Positions 27,961-36,353 of a DNA stretch of 36,353 bases are shown in pieces. The notes under the pieces were generated by a model that saw only the letters and a list, made by a program, of their open reading frames with translations, made no database searches and was not told where the DNA came from. The stretch's first letter is position 1. The number at the start of each line of letters is the position of its first letter. Source of the stretch: Campylobacterota bacterium (GTDB lineage Bacteria > Campylobacterota > Campylobacteria > Campylobacterales > QNZT01); the NCBI GenBank assembly GCA_022600175.1, contig JAHZKW010000104.1:1-36353 (forward strand), read 5' to 3'. The position numbers were made by a program, and so were the translations under genes.

Positions 27961-28560
27961 CTAAATTCGTTTTAAAAACAGTGTAAAATCATGGGGTAAG
28001 TACCCTGTGACAAGGCTTATTTCACATGGAAACTTTTGTGCAAAATGGTTAATCTCTTGGGGCAGAAAATAGTTAAAATGAGCACTCTCATTTTTGCCAT
28101 AAGGCAGGTTAAAGACAAACCCAATATTACTATGTGCAAAACAGCGTTCTATAAAAAGATAGGTCTCAAATCTATTCAAAATATTCATCGACCCACTGGC
28201 AATATAAATATCTGCAACTTCTAAAGGATCAGTCAAAATATCTCTATGTTTTATATCTTGTGAAGTGCGTTGTTGTGCTATTTCAACAACTTCATCAACG
28301 ATGTCATAGCCCTTATAAGTTACTTGGCAGTGTCTCTTTTGTAGATAGAGATAAAAATCTCCAAATCCACACCCCGCATCGATGACTGATCTGTGGGTAA
28401 GATCTGCTTTGATAAGATCATAAATGACTTCAAAACGTTTAGTTTGAGAGTATGCATCATGCCAATTTAATCCTTGTGCAGTTGAACCATACTTTTTGAG
28501 TGCTGTAGTGTAGAATTTGGTGTTGTTTATTCTTGGCATATCTATAAGTATACTAGCCAT
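27961..28560 (-). CDS. Class I SAM-dependent methyltransferase
   Basis: VIDAGCGFGDFYLYLQKR (motif I), divergent from the pse cluster. Confidence 0.8.
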   Translation of the reverse strand: MASILIDMPRINNTKFYTTALKKYGSTAQGLNWHDAYSQTKRFEVIYDLIKADLTHRSVIDAGCGFGDFYLYLQKRHCQVTYKGYDIVDEVVEIAQQRTSQDIKHRDILTDPLEVADIYIASGSMNILNRFETYLFIERCFAHSNIGFVFNLPYGKNESAHFNYFLPQEINHFAQKFPCEISLVTGYLPHDFTLFLKRI

Positions 28561-28576
28561 TGGTATACTTTTTGCT
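28561..28576 (+). promoter_or_regulatory. Putative sigma54 (RpoN) promoter upstream of pseC
   Basis: TGGTATACTTTTTGCT: GG-N10-GC spacing, -12 GC 39 nt before the ATG. Confidence 0.55.
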
Positions 28577-28613
28577 TAAAACTATTTAATTAAGAGAAAT
28601 TATTGGAGATTAT

Positions 28614-29762
28614 ATGGCGATATCTGTACAAGAGAAGTTTTCTATTCCTTATGGTAAACAAACGATCAATCAATCTGATATTGACAAAGTAGTTGAAATT
28701 TTGAATGGTCCTTTGATCACTACTGGACCACAAGTAATGAAGTTTGAAGAAGCTTTATCCCGTTATACTGGCGCAAACTACGCTGTTGCTGTTTCCAATG
28801 GTACTGCGGCACTACACTTAGCCTCTTTAGCCCTGTTGGAGGAGGGTGATAAAGTATTAACAACGCCTAACTCTTTTTTAGCAACTTCAAATGCAATTCT
28901 CTATGTCAAAGCGAAACCTATTTTTGTTGATATCTGTGAAGATGGCAATATTGACCTTGATCTTTGTGAACAGTATCTACAAAAGGATCCTACAATAAAA
29001 GCAATTTACGGCGTACACTTTTCAGGAAACTTATTGGATCAAACACACCTTAAAGCATTGAAAAATAGATATAAGGTTATGATATTGGAAGATTGTGCGC
29101 ACTCTATTGGTGCTGAGAATTTGGGGGTCAAAGCAGGTAGTTGTGCTTTTAGTGATTGTGCTATTTTTTCATTTCATCCTGTTAAAAATATGACAACAGG
29201 AGAGGGGGGAGCTATTACGACTAATTCAAAAGAGCTCTATGAAAAATTACTTGTGCTTAGAAATCATGGAATGGTTCGAAAATCAGATGTTGCACCGTGG
29301 TATTATGAGATGCATACATTAGGATTTAATTATCGTTTAACAGATATTCAAGCAGCACTTGGTATTTCCCAGCTTTCACGACTTGACAAGTTTTTAGAAA
29401 AAAGAAGAGCAATTGTAAAGCGTTATCATAGACTTTTAGAAGAGACTCCTGTAAAGCCACTTTATGCATTTGATGAAGGCTCAGCCTAGCATCTATTTGT
29501 AGTAAGAGTAGATTTTACAAAGTTGCAAATTTCTAAAAAAGTGTTATTTGAAGCATTAATTGAAGAGGGGATTGGTGTACAGCTTCATTATATTCCTATC
29601 AATAAACAGCCTTACTATCTGGAGTTGGGATATGGTTACGAAGATACACCTCAGATGGATCGATATTATGAAGAGGCGATCTCTTTACCACTATTTCCGC
29701 TTTTAAAAAGAGAGGAACAGGATTTTGTGGTTGAGACACTTTTGAGGTTAGTGAATGCTTAA
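28614..29762 (+). pseudogene. pseC: UDP-4-amino-4,6-dideoxy-N-acetyl-beta-L-altrosamine transaminase, interrupted by an in-frame TAG at 29487-29489
   Basis: Tracks 28614..29489 and 29523..29762 are in the same frame; reading through gives ...DEGSA*HLFVVRVDFTKLQISKKVLFEALIEEGIGVQLHYIPINKQPYY..., a continuous DegT/DnrJ aminotransferase. Confidence 0.88.
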
Positions 29763-30486
29763 TCTCTTGATTATCATTCAAGCGAGAATGACCTCAACGA
29801 GACTTCCTAAAAAAGTATTATTGCCTCTGTGTGGCAAAACAGTCTTGGAAGTGATGATTGAGAGGCTTGGTGATTTAAAAGAGAATATTATTATTGCAAC
29901 GACAAATGATGGTTCAGAAGCAGAGATTGTTACACTGTGTCAAAAACTGGGCGTGAAGTATTACAGAGGTGATACTGAGAATGTCTTGAGCCGCTACTAT
30001 GAAGCTGCGATGATACAAGGTGTGGATGAAGTAGACACTATCGTAAGGCTTACGTCAGATTGCCCTTTAATTGATAAAGCGGTGGTAGAGAAGACAATCG
30101 CTCTTTTTTATGATGGAGAGTATGATTATGTTTCCAATACAATGCATAGAACATTTCCAAGAGGTCTTGATACTGAAGTTTTTAGTTTTAGAGTGCTAAA
30201 AGAGGCATATGATGGTGCAACGTCAATACAAGAGAAAGAGCATGTAACTACCTATATCCATACCACACATAGAGAACATTTTAATCTTGGAAGCTATCAA
30301 GATCCTCAAGACAATTCAAAATATCGTTTGACCTTAGATGAAGAGGCAGACTATACGGCTATAAAAACACTCTATGAAAAGTTTAATTGTAAGATAGATT
30401 TTGATTATGATGCATTGATCAAGGTCCTACATGCGAATCCTTTCATTTATGAGATCAATAAAGAGATAGAACAAAAAAAGTTATGA
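29755..30486 (+). CDS. SpsF-type cytidylyltransferase (candidate CMP-pseudaminic acid synthetase)
   Basis: IIIQARMTSTRLPKKVLLPLCGKTVLEVMIERL, RLTSDCPLID; placed between pseC and pseG. Confidence 0.8.
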   Translation: MLNLLIIIQARMTSTRLPKKVLLPLCGKTVLEVMIERLGDLKENIIIATTNDGSEAEIVTLCQKLGVKYYRGDTENVLSRYYEAAMIQGVDEVDTIVRLTSDCPLIDKAVVEKTIALFYDGEYDYVSNTMHRTFPRGLDTEVFSFRVLKEAYDGATSIQEKEHVTTYIHTTHREHFNLGSYQDPQDNSKYRLTLDEEADYTAIKTLYEKFNCKIDFDYDALIKVLHANPFIYEINKEIEQKKL

Positions 30487-31895
30487 ATATTCTCATCCGT
30501 GCAGATGCATCATCAAATATTGGTACAGGTCATGTGATGCGGGATTTAGTTTTAGCAAAACAGTTTGAAAATGCTCAGGTTATTTTTGCCACACAAAATT
30601 TGGCAGGTAATATAAATCAAAAAATTGTTGATGATGGATATCAGATTATCAATCTACAATCTAATTGTAAAGATGAGTTATTAGAACATATTAAGAAGTT
30701 AGCCATTGATCTGTTGATCATAGATCATTATGCCATTGATGCAACTTATGAGTATGATGTTAGACAGAGGAGTGGCGTCAAAATTTTAAGCTTTGATGAT
30801 ACTTATGAAAAGCATTATTGTGATTATCTCTTAAACCAAAATATATATGCCAAGAGAAGTGCGTATACCAAGTTGGTACCTGATTTTTGCACACTCTTTT
30901 GTGGTCTTGATTTTGCGCTTCTTCGTGATGAGTTTCACCAATGTCACAAACACCCAAAAGTACTAAAAAAAGAGATAACCGTCCTTCTCTCTTTAGGAGG
31001 GAGTGATGTGAAAAATATCTCAGCATTTGTGATTGATGCAATCAAAGATCTTGAAAATATAAAGATTCAAGTAGTTTTAGGCGCATCAAACCCTCATGTT
31101 GCAAGGCTTCAAAGAGAATTTGCACATATACAGAATATCGAGCTTATTGTTAATACAAACAGTATGGCAGCGTTAATGGCGCAAGCAGATATTGGCATTA
31201 TTGCAGCAGGCTCTAGTACGATAGAGGGGCTTTTTATGCATCTTCCGATGATTACCATTCAGAGTGCTGAAAATCAATCTTTGATCGTAAAGGCATTATC
31301 TGAAAAAAATCTTGCCATCAATCTTGGCAAAGCTGAAAACTTATCTCTCAAGATGATCCAAGAGGCTCTCTATCATATTATGACCCCCAAAGTCTATAGA
31401 GGGTTATCTCATCATACCTATCAAATTGCTACTAAAAATATATCAGATTTTATTAATTTACGCCAAGTAAATAAAGAGGATATCGATTTTTTATATCTCT
31501 TAGCAAACGATAAGCGTGCACGACAAAACTCTTTAAATCAAAAAGAGATTAGTTATGAGGAGCATACGGAATGGTTTGGCCATAAGTTAAATGCGATTAA
31601 AGAGAAAGAGAGTGAGATCTATATTTATGAAGAAGATAAGCAAAAGATTGGGGTCATAAGAATTGATAAACATGGGATATTTTATGTTGTGAGTATTACT
31701 GTTTTAGATGCTTATAGAGGGCTGGGGATGGCAAAACGTATGTTACGTGCATTGTTATATCGTGTGAGGGAGAGGATATTGATCGCATATATTAAACATA
31801 GCAATGAAACTTCAAAACGACTCTTTTTATCTGTTGGGTTTCAAGAAGCAAGAAAGTGTAAAGATATTTCATTATATAGGTTAAAAATTAAATAA
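30483..31895 (+). CDS. PseG-PseH fusion: UDP-sugar hydrolase with C-terminal GNAT N-acetyltransferase domain
   Basis: N-terminus IRADASSNIGTGHVMRDLVLA and AADIGIIAAGSSTIEGL-like region (PseG); residues ~320-470 INLRQVNKEDIDFLYLLAND..VSITVLDAYRGLGMAKRMLRAL (GNAT/PseH). Confidence 0.85.
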   Translation: MNILIRADASSNIGTGHVMRDLVLAKQFENAQVIFATQNLAGNINQKIVDDGYQIINLQSNCKDELLEHIKKLAIDLLIIDHYAIDATYEYDVRQRSGVKILSFDDTYEKHYCDYLLNQNIYAKRSAYTKLVPDFCTLFCGLDFALLRDEFHQCHKHPKVLKKEITVLLSLGGSDVKNISAFVIDAIKDLENIKIQVVLGASNPHVARLQREFAHIQNIELIVNTNSMAALMAQADIGIIAAGSSTIEGLFMHLPMITIQSAENQSLIVKALSEKNLAINLGKAENLSLKMIQEALYHIMTPKVYRGLSHHTYQIATKNISDFINLRQVNKEDIDFLYLLANDKRARQNSLNQKEISYEEHTEWFGHKLNAIKEKESEIYIYEEDKQKIGVIRIDKHGIFYVVSITVLDAYRGLGMAKRMLRALLYRVRERILIAYIKHSNETSKRLFLSVGFQEARKCKDISLYRLKIK

Positions 31896-31927: not shown

Positions 31928-32977
31928 ATGAAAATAGAAGATAGAAAAATTGGCAGTGATGCTCCTACCTATATTATCGCTGAGGTCTCTGCAAATCATA
32001 ATCAAGACTATGATACTGCAAAAGAGATGCTAAAAGCTGCAAAAGAGGCAGGTGCAGATGCGGTGAAGTTACAAACCTATACTGCAGATACGATGACTTT
32101 AGATGTTCATAACGAGTACTTCACCATTGATCAAGGAACTATTTGGGATGGAAAAAACCTCTATGCACTTTATAAAGAGGCTTATACCCCTTGGGAGTGG
32201 CAACCAAAACTCAAAGCATATGCTGATGAGATTGGTATTACACTTTTTTCATCCCCCTTTGATAAGAGTTCAGTTGATTTTTTAGAGAAGATGGATGTTC
32301 CAGCTTACAAGATAGCGTCATTTGAGATCACTGATCTTCCACTTATCAAGTATGTTGCTTCAAAACAAAAGCCTGTGATTATCTCTACAGGTATTGCATC
32401 ACTTGCAGATATAGAAGCAGCAGTACAGTGCTGTAAAGATGTAGGGAATGATCAAATTGTCTTACTTAAATGTACTTCAGCATATCCTGCCCCGTTAGAG
32501 GAGGCAAATCTATTGACGATTCCAAATTTGGCAGAGACTTTTGGGGTTATTGCTGGGTTTTCAGATCATACTTTAGGCATAACTGCACCAGTGGCAGCAG
32601 TTGCACTTGGGGCGAAAGTGATAGAGAAACATTTTATTTTGGATAAGTCTATGGGTGGTGTGGATAGTGCTTTTTCACTTGATATTGGTGAGTTCAAAGA
32701 GATGGTTCAAGCCGTAAGAGATACAGAGAAATTGTTAGGGAAAATCTCTTATGAGATGAACGCTAAAAAGTTAAAGTCTCGTGAGTTTTCACGAAGTCTT
32801 TTTATTGCTAAAGATATTAAAAAAGGTGAGCTCTTCACAGAGGAAAATGTCCGAGTGGTCAGGCCTGGTTATGGGTTAGCACCAAAGTATATTGATAAAG
32901 TATTAGGTAAAAAAGCCGATAAAGATTATAGAAAAGGGGTGCCGTTATTGGCATTGCCACATGAGGAAAAGAGATGA
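31928..32977 (+). CDS. pseI: Pseudaminic acid synthase
   Basis: YIIAEVSANHNQDYDTAKEML, AGFSDHTLGI, EKHFILDKSMGGVDSAFS, C-terminal SAF-like domain. Confidence 0.93.
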   Translation: MKIEDRKIGSDAPTYIIAEVSANHNQDYDTAKEMLKAAKEAGADAVKLQTYTADTMTLDVHNEYFTIDQGTIWDGKNLYALYKEAYTPWEWQPKLKAYADEIGITLFSSPFDKSSVDFLEKMDVPAYKIASFEITDLPLIKYVASKQKPVIISTGIASLADIEAAVQCCKDVGNDQIVLLKCTSAYPAPLEEANLLTIPNLAETFGVIAGFSDHTLGITAPVAAVALGAKVIEKHFILDKSMGGVDSAFSLDIGEFKEMVQAVRDTEKLLGKISYEMNAKKLKSREFSRSLFIAKDIKKGELFTEENVRVVRPGYGLAPKYIDKVLGKKADKDYRKGVPLLALPHEEKR

Positions 32978-34111
32978 GATATTGTACAAAATGTGTCATG
33001 CCAGATACGAAGCCTGAGTTGACATTTGATGCACAAGGTGTTTGTAATGCCTGTAGAGCACATGAAAGAAAAGCAGAAAATATAGATTGGGCACAAAGAG
33101 AGAAAGAGTTTTTAGAGATTGTCAAAGCCAATAAAAAAAATGATGGCTATGATGTTTTGATACCTGTGAGTGGAGGAAAGGATTCTACTTATCAAACAGT
33201 TAAAGCACTTGAGATGGGTCTTAAACCTCTTTGTGTCTGTTTTGAACCGACAATTCCCACAGCGCTAGGAAAACAAAACCTTGATAATTTACAAGATTTG
33301 GGTGTTGATCTGATTTTAGTGAAAAAAGACCCAAAGGTCTATAAAAGCATGGTGATTGAGGGCTTTAAGATTTTAGGTGACAATGAGTGGCCAGATCACT
33401 TAGGTATATTTACGGTACCTGCTCATTTTGCAGTGAAGTTTAATATTCCGCTACTTTTATGGGGTGAAAATTCACAGTTTGAGTATGGTGGACCAGCAGC
33501 ATCACAAGAAAATAAATACCTTAACCGAAGATGGCTTGAAGAGTTTGGTGGATTGTTAGGGTATCGTGTAGAAGATATGATAGGAGTTGATGGTATTAGT
33601 AAAAAGGATCTCTACCTTTATAGCTATCCTTCTGATGAAGAGATTGAAAAGGTAGGAGTGACAGGTATATTTTTAGGATACTATTTTCCATGGGATACGC
33701 GTCGTCAAACAGATGTGTCCATCGCCAATGGTTTTAAGGTTGCCTCAAGACATATCGAGACTACGTATACTAATTTTGAAAATTTTAGATTGTCACTCTA
33801 TGACCATACATGACTATCTCAAATATGTTAAGTATGGGTTTGGCCGTGCGACTGATCATGCATGTTTAGATGTGAGAAATGGTGATATCCCACGTGAGGA
33901 GGCTGTGAGACTTGCCAATAGATATGATGGACGCTATCCACATGAAGCGGTACGTGAGTTTTGTGATTATACGGGGATGAGTCAAGAAGAGTTTGATGAG
34001 ACGATAGATACTTTTACCAATAGAAAGATATTTCGTCAAAATGAACAAGGAGAGTTTTTAAAAGATATTGATGGTTCACTCATCAAAAATGATGAATATC
34101 TTTTAAGCTAA
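32974..34111 (+). pseudogene. pseA: N-acetyl sugar amidotransferase (PseA/WbpG-like), split by a one-base frameshift near 33783-33786
   Basis: Frame 1: MRYCTKCVMPDTKPELTFDAQGVCNAC...VSGGKDSTYQ...SRHIETTYTNFEN; the family sequence resumes in the next frame: LDCHSMTIHDYLKYVKYGFGRATDHACLDVRNGDIPREEAVRLANRYDG. Confidence 0.88.
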
Positions 34112-34112
34112 A

Positions 34113-34718
34113 TTGATGATTACGATTATTGACTATGGGATGGGAAATGCAACGTCAGTCAAAAAGGCGTATGATTTTTTAGGTATCAAAAGTGTGATTA
34201 CCAATGCACCTCAAATGGTCAAAGAGGGTGATAAGATTTTAATTCCAGGTGTGGGGGCATTTGGTGATGCTGTAGATGCTTTGCATGAGTTAAATCTTTT
34301 TGAAACTATCAAAGATGAGGTCATTAATCGTAAAAAGCCGATACTTGGCATCTGTTTAGGGATGCAGCTTTTAGCAAAAAGCAGTCAAGAAACAAAAGAG
34401 AAAGAGGGGTTTGGGTTTATCGATACGGTATGTCATAAGTTTGATATTGATCTTAAAGTCCCTCATGTAGGTTGGAATAGTATCAAAATACTCCATGCTA
34501 ACTCCCCACTCTTTCACACGATACCTGATGATAGTGATTTCTATTTTGTCCACTCTTATCACTTTGATAGTAAGACAAAAGAGAAAAGTACGATGGTAAA
34601 TTATGGTTATGATTTTACCAGTTCAGTTGAAAGTGACAATATCTTTGGAGTACAGTTTCATCCTGAAAAAAGCCAAAAACATGGTTTAGCACTCTTGAAA
34701 AACTTTGGAAACCTATAG
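34113..34718 (+). CDS. hisH: HisH-like glutamine amidotransferase subunit (second-copy type, partner of PseA)
   Basis: IIDYGMGNATSVKKA, GICLGMQLLA (catalytic Cys), VQFHPEKSQKHG (His/Glu); adjacent to pseA and hisF-like genes. Confidence 0.88.
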   Translation: MMITIIDYGMGNATSVKKAYDFLGIKSVITNAPQMVKEGDKILIPGVGAFGDAVDALHELNLFETIKDEVINRKKPILGICLGMQLLAKSSQETKEKEGFGFIDTVCHKFDIDLKVPHVGWNSIKILHANSPLFHTIPDDSDFYFVHSYHFDSKTKEKSTMVNYGYDFTSSVESDNIFGVQFHPEKSQKHGLALLKNFGNL

Positions 34719-35471
34719 ATGTTAAAACATAGAGTTATCCCGTGTGTTTTGTTAAAAGATTGGCAGTTGACAAAGAGTGTTGGGTTTGAAGAGTTTAGAA
34801 CTATTGGGCACCCTAAAGTCACATCAAAAATATATAATAGACGCAATGTTGATGAGTTAATTGTACTAGATATTGATGCGAGTAACTTGGAGAAAAGTAT
34901 CAATTATAAGACATTGAGTGATATCGCCCAAGAGTGCTTTATGCCACTAACCCTTGGTGGAGGAATTAGATCCCTTGAAGATATCAATAAACTTTTAGAG
35001 ATTGGTGCAGACAAAGTCTCACTCAATACTATCGCTTTGAAAAAGCCAGATTTTATCAAAGAGGCAAGTGTGAAATATGGATCTCAATGTATTGTGATAA
35101 GTATTGATGTGATTAAAGAGGAGCAGTGCTATAAAATCTACAATAAAAATCTCGGCGTTGTGCATGATTTAGATTTACGCTTATGGATGCATACATGTGA
35201 GAGACTTGGGGCAGGGGAGATCTTACTGACGAGTGTTGATCATGATGGTAGAGAGTGTGGTTATGATGTTGATCTCATCGCACTTGTCGCTAAAGAGGTT
35301 AACATACCTATTATTGCCAATGGTGGAGCAGGGAATCCTCTACATGCAGTAGATGCAATTAGGGCTGGAGCAGACGCGATTGCTGCAGCATCAATTTTTC
35401 ATTTTACGCAATATACACCTGATAATATCAAAGAAGTACTACAAAAAGCCAACCTTCCTGTACGACTCTAA
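34719..35471 (+). CDS. hisF: HisF-like (WbpI/HisF2-type) synthase subunit, partner of PseA
   Basis: VDELIVLDIDASN, LTLGGGIRSLEDINKLLEIGADKVSLNT, GAGEILLTSVDHDGRECGYD; N-terminus IPCVLLKDWQLTKS rather than CLDVKDGRVVKG. Confidence 0.88.
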   Translation: MLKHRVIPCVLLKDWQLTKSVGFEEFRTIGHPKVTSKIYNRRNVDELIVLDIDASNLEKSINYKTLSDIAQECFMPLTLGGGIRSLEDINKLLEIGADKVSLNTIALKKPDFIKEASVKYGSQCIVISIDVIKEEQCYKIYNKNLGVVHDLDLRLWMHTCERLGAGEILLTSVDHDGRECGYDVDLIALVAKEVNIPIIANGGAGNPLHAVDAIRAGADAIAAASIFHFTQYTPDNIKEVLQKANLPVRL

Positions 35472-35491: not shown

Positions 35492-35507
35492 TGGAATAAT
35501 TTTTGCT
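35492..35507 (+). promoter_or_regulatory. Putative sigma54 (RpoN) promoter upstream of the DUF2920-like gene
   Basis: TGGAATAATTTTTGCT: GG-N10-GC, -12 GC 40 nt before the ATG; near-identical to the pseC element. Confidence 0.55.
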
Positions 35508-35545: not shown

Positions 35546-36353
35546 ATGGGCTTACTGACTGCTAACACTGCACTAATAACTGAAAAAAAAAGTGTTCAAT
35601 CTTGTCATGATTTTGAACTTGACATCCCAAGAAGAGATAACGTAGAGTATAAATATAGCTATCCTTCAGAAGGTAAATTAAAAGGGATAGTGTTTATTAT
35701 TCCTGGATTTGGAGATGATAGTAATTTATCGTATAGTGATAATCTACGTGAATATATTGCTGAAAAATTTTCAGTAATTGCTGTTAATGTTTACTATCAC
35801 TGTTTTTATTCGCGCGTAGAAAACGGTGCGAAATTAACACTTGATGCATCTGACAAAAAACTATTGCATAATCATCTAGATCGATATAACATTGCCTATC
35901 AGGATAATAGCTATTTTGATGCTTTATCTGATTTAGACGATAAACTTGATGAACAAGTTCAAATGGGTGCGATTTCTGAAGCGTTAAAACATATCGTAAC
36001 CATGACTTTGGCACCACAACATGATGAGTATCAAAACTTTGGAGTTATGCAAGCACTTGATCACTTAAATGTCCTTAAAGAGATTGAGAGTATGTCATTA
36101 AATTTTGATACAAATTGTGGTGTGACCTTGATGGGGAGTAGTCATGGTGGATATCTTGCTTACCTTATTGCAAAATTGGCACCCCATAAAATTGATTGTG
36201 TGATTGATAACTCTGCGTATGTACAACCACCATTAAATTATATTGTGGGCAAAGAGAAAGACCTTTTAAATTCTGAATATAGGATGTCTAATTATAGGCA
36301 CATTCAGATCAACTGTTTTGTGAAGACGCTATGGACACTTGATCCTACTTCAG
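35546..36353 (+). CDS. DUF2920-like alpha/beta-hydrolase-fold protein (partial, runs off the right edge)
   Basis: Own translation from ATG 35546 is open to the window end: MGLLTANTALITEKKSVQSCHDFELDIPRRDNVEYKYSYPSEGKLKGIVFIIPGFGDDSN...VNVYYHCFYSRVENGAKL...GVTLMGSSHGGYLAYLIAKLAPHKIDCVIDNSA. GxSxGG nucleophile-elbow motif. Absent from the ORF track because it is open-ended. Confidence 0.75.
   Translation, partial: MGLLTANTALITEKKSVQSCHDFELDIPRRDNVEYKYSYPSEGKLKGIVFIIPGFGDDSNLSYSDNLREYIAEKFSVIAVNVYYHCFYSRVENGAKLTLDASDKKLLHNHLDRYNIAYQDNSYFDALSDLDDKLDEQVQMGAISEALKHIVTMTLAPQHDEYQNFGVMQALDHLNVLKEIESMSLNFDTNCGVTLMGSSHGGYLAYLIAKLAPHKIDCVIDNSAYVQPPLNYIVGKEKDLLNSEYRMSNYRHIQINCFVKTLWTLDPTS

Follow-up and report, generated by a model that had tools for sequence, protein, structure and literature searches.

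A pseudaminic acid locus with an interrupted pseC

The window, by which we mean the whole 36,353-nucleotide stretch of DNA analyzed here, comes from a draft assembly of a Campylobacterota bacterium (163 contigs, 94.4% complete) and carries genes for the synthesis of pseudaminic acid (Pse; Table 1). Next to a divergent methyltransferase gene lies pseC, for UDP-4-amino-4,6-dideoxy-N-acetyl-beta-L-altrosamine transaminase, a gene of 382 codons that is interrupted at codon 292 by an amber codon in the same frame as its ATG. It is followed by a probable pseF, a pseG-pseH fusion and pseI, and then by a frameshifted wbuX/pseA-type gene and the genes of two further subunits, one HisH-like and one HisF2/WbuZ-like. 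PseG and PseI are both present with scores above their cut-offs, while the PseH model TIGR03585 reaches 31 bits on the C-terminal part of the fusion, against a cut-off of 93.

Table 1. Features of the pse locus, in positions of the window
Feature	Position	Strand	Basis
Divergent methyltransferase gene, flank of the pse locus	27961..28560	-	Pfam; same neighbor in loci L085-L090 and L093
Methyltransferase-pseC intergenic region, site of pseB in relatives	28561..28613	+	Synteny
Sigma-54-like promoter TGGTATACTTTTTGCT	28561..28576	+	Precedes pseB in relatives
pseC, interrupted	28614..29762	+	TIGR03588, 446.7 bits read through
In-frame TAG, codon 292 of pseC	29487..29489	+	Tyr codon in 26/26 close orthologs
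Probable pseF, cytidylyltransferase of the CMP-pseudaminic acid synthetase type	29755..30486	+	PF02348; 60% identical gene in the same place in locus L039
pseG-pseH fusion, hydrolase and GNAT acetyltransferase	30483..31895	+	TIGR03590, 257.5 bits, above cut-off; GNAT domains
pseI, pseudaminic acid synthase	31928..32977	+	TIGR03586, 512.5 bits, above cut-off
wbuX/pseA-type N-acetyl sugar amidotransferase gene, frameshifted	32974..34111	+	TIGR03573 in two frames
HisH-like glutamine amidotransferase subunit	34113..34718	+	TIGR01855, 224.1 bits
HisF2/WbuZ-like subunit	34719..35471	+	TIGR03572, 290.8 bits, slightly under cut-off (299.7)

The amber codon and the conservation of pseC

Apart from the TAG, which stands between the codons GGC TCA GCC and CAT CTA, the frame of pseC is open as far as a TAA at 29760-29762. 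With the stop rendered as X, the read-through protein of 382 residues exceeds the curated cut-off of the PseC model TIGR03588 (446.7 against 423.5 bits), and genome-wide it is the only PseC to do so. The 291-residue product as encoded falls below that cut-off, at 351.6 bits, and the C-terminal part on its own scores 82.3 bits. The two parts cover positions 2-283 and 295-379 of the 380 in the model, and the C-terminal part shares 49-69% identity, mostly 58-65%, with close orthologs. Judged from these matches, the homology across the amber is true continuity, far beyond what chance would give. The initial annotation, made from the letters of the sequence, had described an in-frame amber in an otherwise well-conserved pseC, and this description is borne out. 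It had also divided the gene into two open reading frames (ORFs) in one frame; the pieces do share a frame and are homologous, but the homology of the second begins at the codon at 29490, and 29523, where that piece had been said to start, is simply the first alternative start codon.

The PLP-binding lysine motif SFHxxKN is present as FSFHPVKN, in alignment with FSFHAIKN of ArnB (1mdo), and we take its Lys191 to have the PLP-binding role. The amber would cost the aminotransferase about 90 residues at its C-terminus, and loss of function through truncation, as first proposed, is the likely outcome, so that PseC activity is presumably lacking. Other full-length DegT proteins of the genome were considered as a second intact PseC and rejected; none of them reaches the cut-off for PseC, and both of those examined are LegC-like.

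We aligned the read-through PseC with 41 homologs. All 41 have a sense codon at the amber position, none of them naturally ending there, and no internal stop occurs in any of the aligned pseC orthologs. Tyr, encoded by TAT or TAC, occupies the position in every one of the 26 close orthologs (same order, Campylobacterota; 54-71% identity). Trp is found in only four homologs, which belong to other groups and share 41-45% identity, and in the related enzyme ArnB. Because the close orthologs carry Tyr codons, the change from TGG to TAG that had been suggested as the origin of the amber is unlikely. At the positions that are invariant among 25 other close orthologs, the PseC of the window shows no departure (0/58 before the stop and 0/13 after it, 0/71 in total). 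Since both halves are as conserved as intact genes, the lesion would be recent, or an error, or tolerated.

Translation of UAG

TAG is an ordinary stop in the window, as 6 of its 33 confident genes end in it (20 end in TAA and 7 in TGA). The genome encodes two full-length release factors (357 and 380 aa) without internal stops, consistent with RF1 and RF2, and a CUA anticodon is absent among the 30 tRNAs whose anticodons were read with ARAGORN, an incomplete set without Ala, Asp and Ile tRNAs. The suppressor background that had been listed as a candidate therefore finds no support. Readthrough of UAG, by a near-cognate tRNA or a suppressor, would yield full-length PseC and would agree with a conservation of pseC that is unbroken past the stop; moreover, near-cognate decoding of UAG can insert Tyr, among other residues, and Tyr is what one would expect at this position. 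However, the release factors, the anticodons and the use of TAG as a stop all speak against it, as does the fact that no aligned ortholog has a stop at this position, and a full-length PseC made in this way would still be without the product of PseB (see below). We regard such readthrough as extremely unlikely. Programmed readthrough of the amber is unlikely as well, and the interruption is most simply seen as ordinary gene decay rather than a recoding event.

Absence of pseB upstream of pseC

Each of the 20 relatives that have a close pseC carries pseB directly upstream of it. In the window the methyltransferase gene is 54 bases from pseC, pseB is absent from its syntenic place between the two, and a search of the window for a remnant gave no match at E<=10. 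Nor was pseB found in the rest of the assembly, 94.4% complete, where the best PseB match reaches 177 bits and the cut-off is 407.75. This match is a long dehydratase (589-603 aa), which we take to be of the WbpM/PglF type, beside a LegC-like gene. A point against the loss of pseB is that, in a draft of 163 contigs and this completeness, the gene could fall in an assembly gap.

The sequence 5' of pseC also bears on this question. The promoter-like TGGTATACTTTTTGCT is the only exact sigma-54-type match in the window, and a sigma-54-like motif is likewise found upstream of pseB in four relatives (G018, G012, G013 and G015). The leader that precedes pseC in the window aligns with the pseB leaders of the relatives; for G018 and G012, none of 500 shuffles attains the score. 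Its alignments with the pseC leaders of the relatives are clearly poorer. The simplest account of this arrangement would be a deletion of pseB that joined its promoter to pseC.

Relative G012 (locus L086, 3526-6883) has two pseC genes flanking pseB, the second copy adjoining the methyltransferase gene. Recombination between two such copies was considered as the route by which pseB was deleted and was rejected, as the window pseC shows no sign of being a hybrid: its N and C parts are 73% and 63% identical to the G012 copy that follows pseB, against 63% and 55% for the other copy. In G015 (L089, 11103-12099), pseB is split between two frames; damage to the pse locus may therefore affect several members of the family and not just one, unless the G015 draft has an error here. 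Some relatives have additional small genes between the methyltransferase gene and pseB, as in L085 (3300-4090) and L087 (5900-6790), those of L085 resembling an antitoxin and PIN-type toxin pair, and such genes mark this boundary as a possible hotspot for insertions. pseB can also occur apart from pseC, with a PseB-scoring gene away from a close pseC on contigs G002:C122, G005:C65 and G006:C34; in G002 and G005, PseB is present and a close pseC is absent. This, too, is a point against the loss of pseB here.

The wbuX-type gene and the region beyond

The wbuX-type gene is split near 33785 into two overlapping ORFs in different frames (32974..33813 and 33713..34111). The first covers positions 1-271 and the second positions 270-343 of the 344 in TIGR03573, and an intact 374-aa homolog in G046 spans both parts. 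There is no long repeat tract at the frame change near 33785.

A DUF2920 gene (35546-36353) follows the pse locus, and just upstream of it we noted a second sigma-54-like site (TGGAATAATTTTTGCT, 35492-35507, one mismatch). This site suggests that the DUF2920 gene and the pse locus may be under joint control.

Three lesions in one locus

The locus has three lesions: pseB is missing, pseC carries an amber, and the wbuX-type gene is frameshifted. A nonsense mutation in pseC alone is an ordinary, known kind of event, and it was as a lone stop that the initial annotation had interpreted it. The nonsense codon stands, but the pathway is damaged elsewhere as well, and the case shows that a lone in-frame stop has to be interpreted in the light of the entire operon.

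We considered whether the amber and the frameshift could be errors of sequencing, assembly or bin consensus, both genes working in real cells. A draft of 163 contigs would be compatible with this, and so would the unchanged state of all 71 invariant positions of pseC, which is what is expected of a working gene. Base errors, however, do not explain why pseB is cleanly absent. The sequence around the amber is unremarkable and the site itself has no homopolymer, and no other lesions were noticed in the window. There is no indication of a generally high error rate, since the remaining window genes give near-complete family matches and the 35 ABC-domain matches found genome-wide contain no internal stop. 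Each of the point lesions could singly be an error, whereas two of them and the loss of a gene in one locus favor real decay, and we judge error to be unlikely. Internal stops that had been flagged in other DegT genes (contigs C151 and C93) turned out to be match-edge effects, vanishing under another model or outside the best match.

Surface glycan genes frequently vary within species, and part of the population might be intact, through strain mixture or on/off variation, with the assembly showing the off form. The conservation of pseC, which suggests a recent state, would suit such polymorphism. Against it, neither the amber nor the wbuX frameshift has a repeat tract for slipped-strand switching, which also tells against the reversible on/off variant raised earlier, and a lost pseB is not reversible through a point change. 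Polymorphic or reversible lesions are in our view very unlikely.

Probable loss of the pseudaminic acid pathway

We think it likely that a true loss-of-function mutation gave rise to the amber, in a Pse locus that was recently disabled as a pathway. A genuine nonsense mutation had been among the candidates first listed and is the one we favor, yet as one of three lesions in the locus. Ancestrally, the locus would have had the usual order of the family, with the divergent methyltransferase gene, the sigma-54-like promoter, pseB, pseC, pseF, pseG/H and pseI. Deletion of pseB would have left its promoter and leader joined to pseC, pseC would have gained the amber and lost the C-terminal part of the aminotransferase, and the wbuX-type gene would have gained its frameshift. 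PseB and PseC carry out the first two steps of Pse synthesis. With both steps blocked, no Pse would be made by the known route and the intact downstream enzymes would be without substrate, and another cluster of the genome, of legionaminic type, may have taken over. We infer the recency of the loss, the order of the events and the replacement by legionaminic acid from the sequence. Two points weigh against decay of the pathway, namely that pseC has no other signs of decay and that the downstream pse genes are intact.

From pseC on, the gene order of the window is the same as in the pse locus of a Sulfurimonas sp. MAG (JAMOMX010000266.1; L039 in Table 1), with identities of 70% for pseC, 60% for pseF, 34% for the pseG-pseH fusion and 63% for pseI. 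There, in contrast to the window, pseB lies directly upstream and pseC is uninterrupted. By family assignment, the enzyme steps are also those of the Campylobacter jejuni and Helicobacter pylori pathway (PseB, PseC, PseH, PseG, PseI and PseF), although here steps 1 and 2 are missing or broken while the genome keeps fliF and flagellin-domain genes. In C. jejuni, pse mutants, those of pseC included, have no flagella and are non-motile (PMC8540345). Our literature search found no paper on a premature stop in pseC together with PseB, or on Pse together with Sulfurimonas.

In Bacillus thuringiensis, Pen/Pal make the product of PseB without PseB (PMC7439481), a route that would still need PseC. One could imagine that the cell still makes use of the interrupted pseC, with readthrough and a PseB-independent source of substrate keeping a pseB-less Pse pathway at work. 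If true, this would account for the full conservation of pseC and the downstream genes; we give it hardly any credence.

Returning to the loss of the pathway, contig C151 carries a cluster for a LegB-like dehydratase, LegC, NeuD and NeuB that is apparently intact and runs to the contig end. A legionaminic-type sugar may plausibly have replaced Pse. If so, this relative of Campylobacter, which has flagellar genes and keeps a legionaminic-type cluster but would recently have lost steps 1 and 2 of Pse synthesis, would represent a natural nonulosonic acid replacement.
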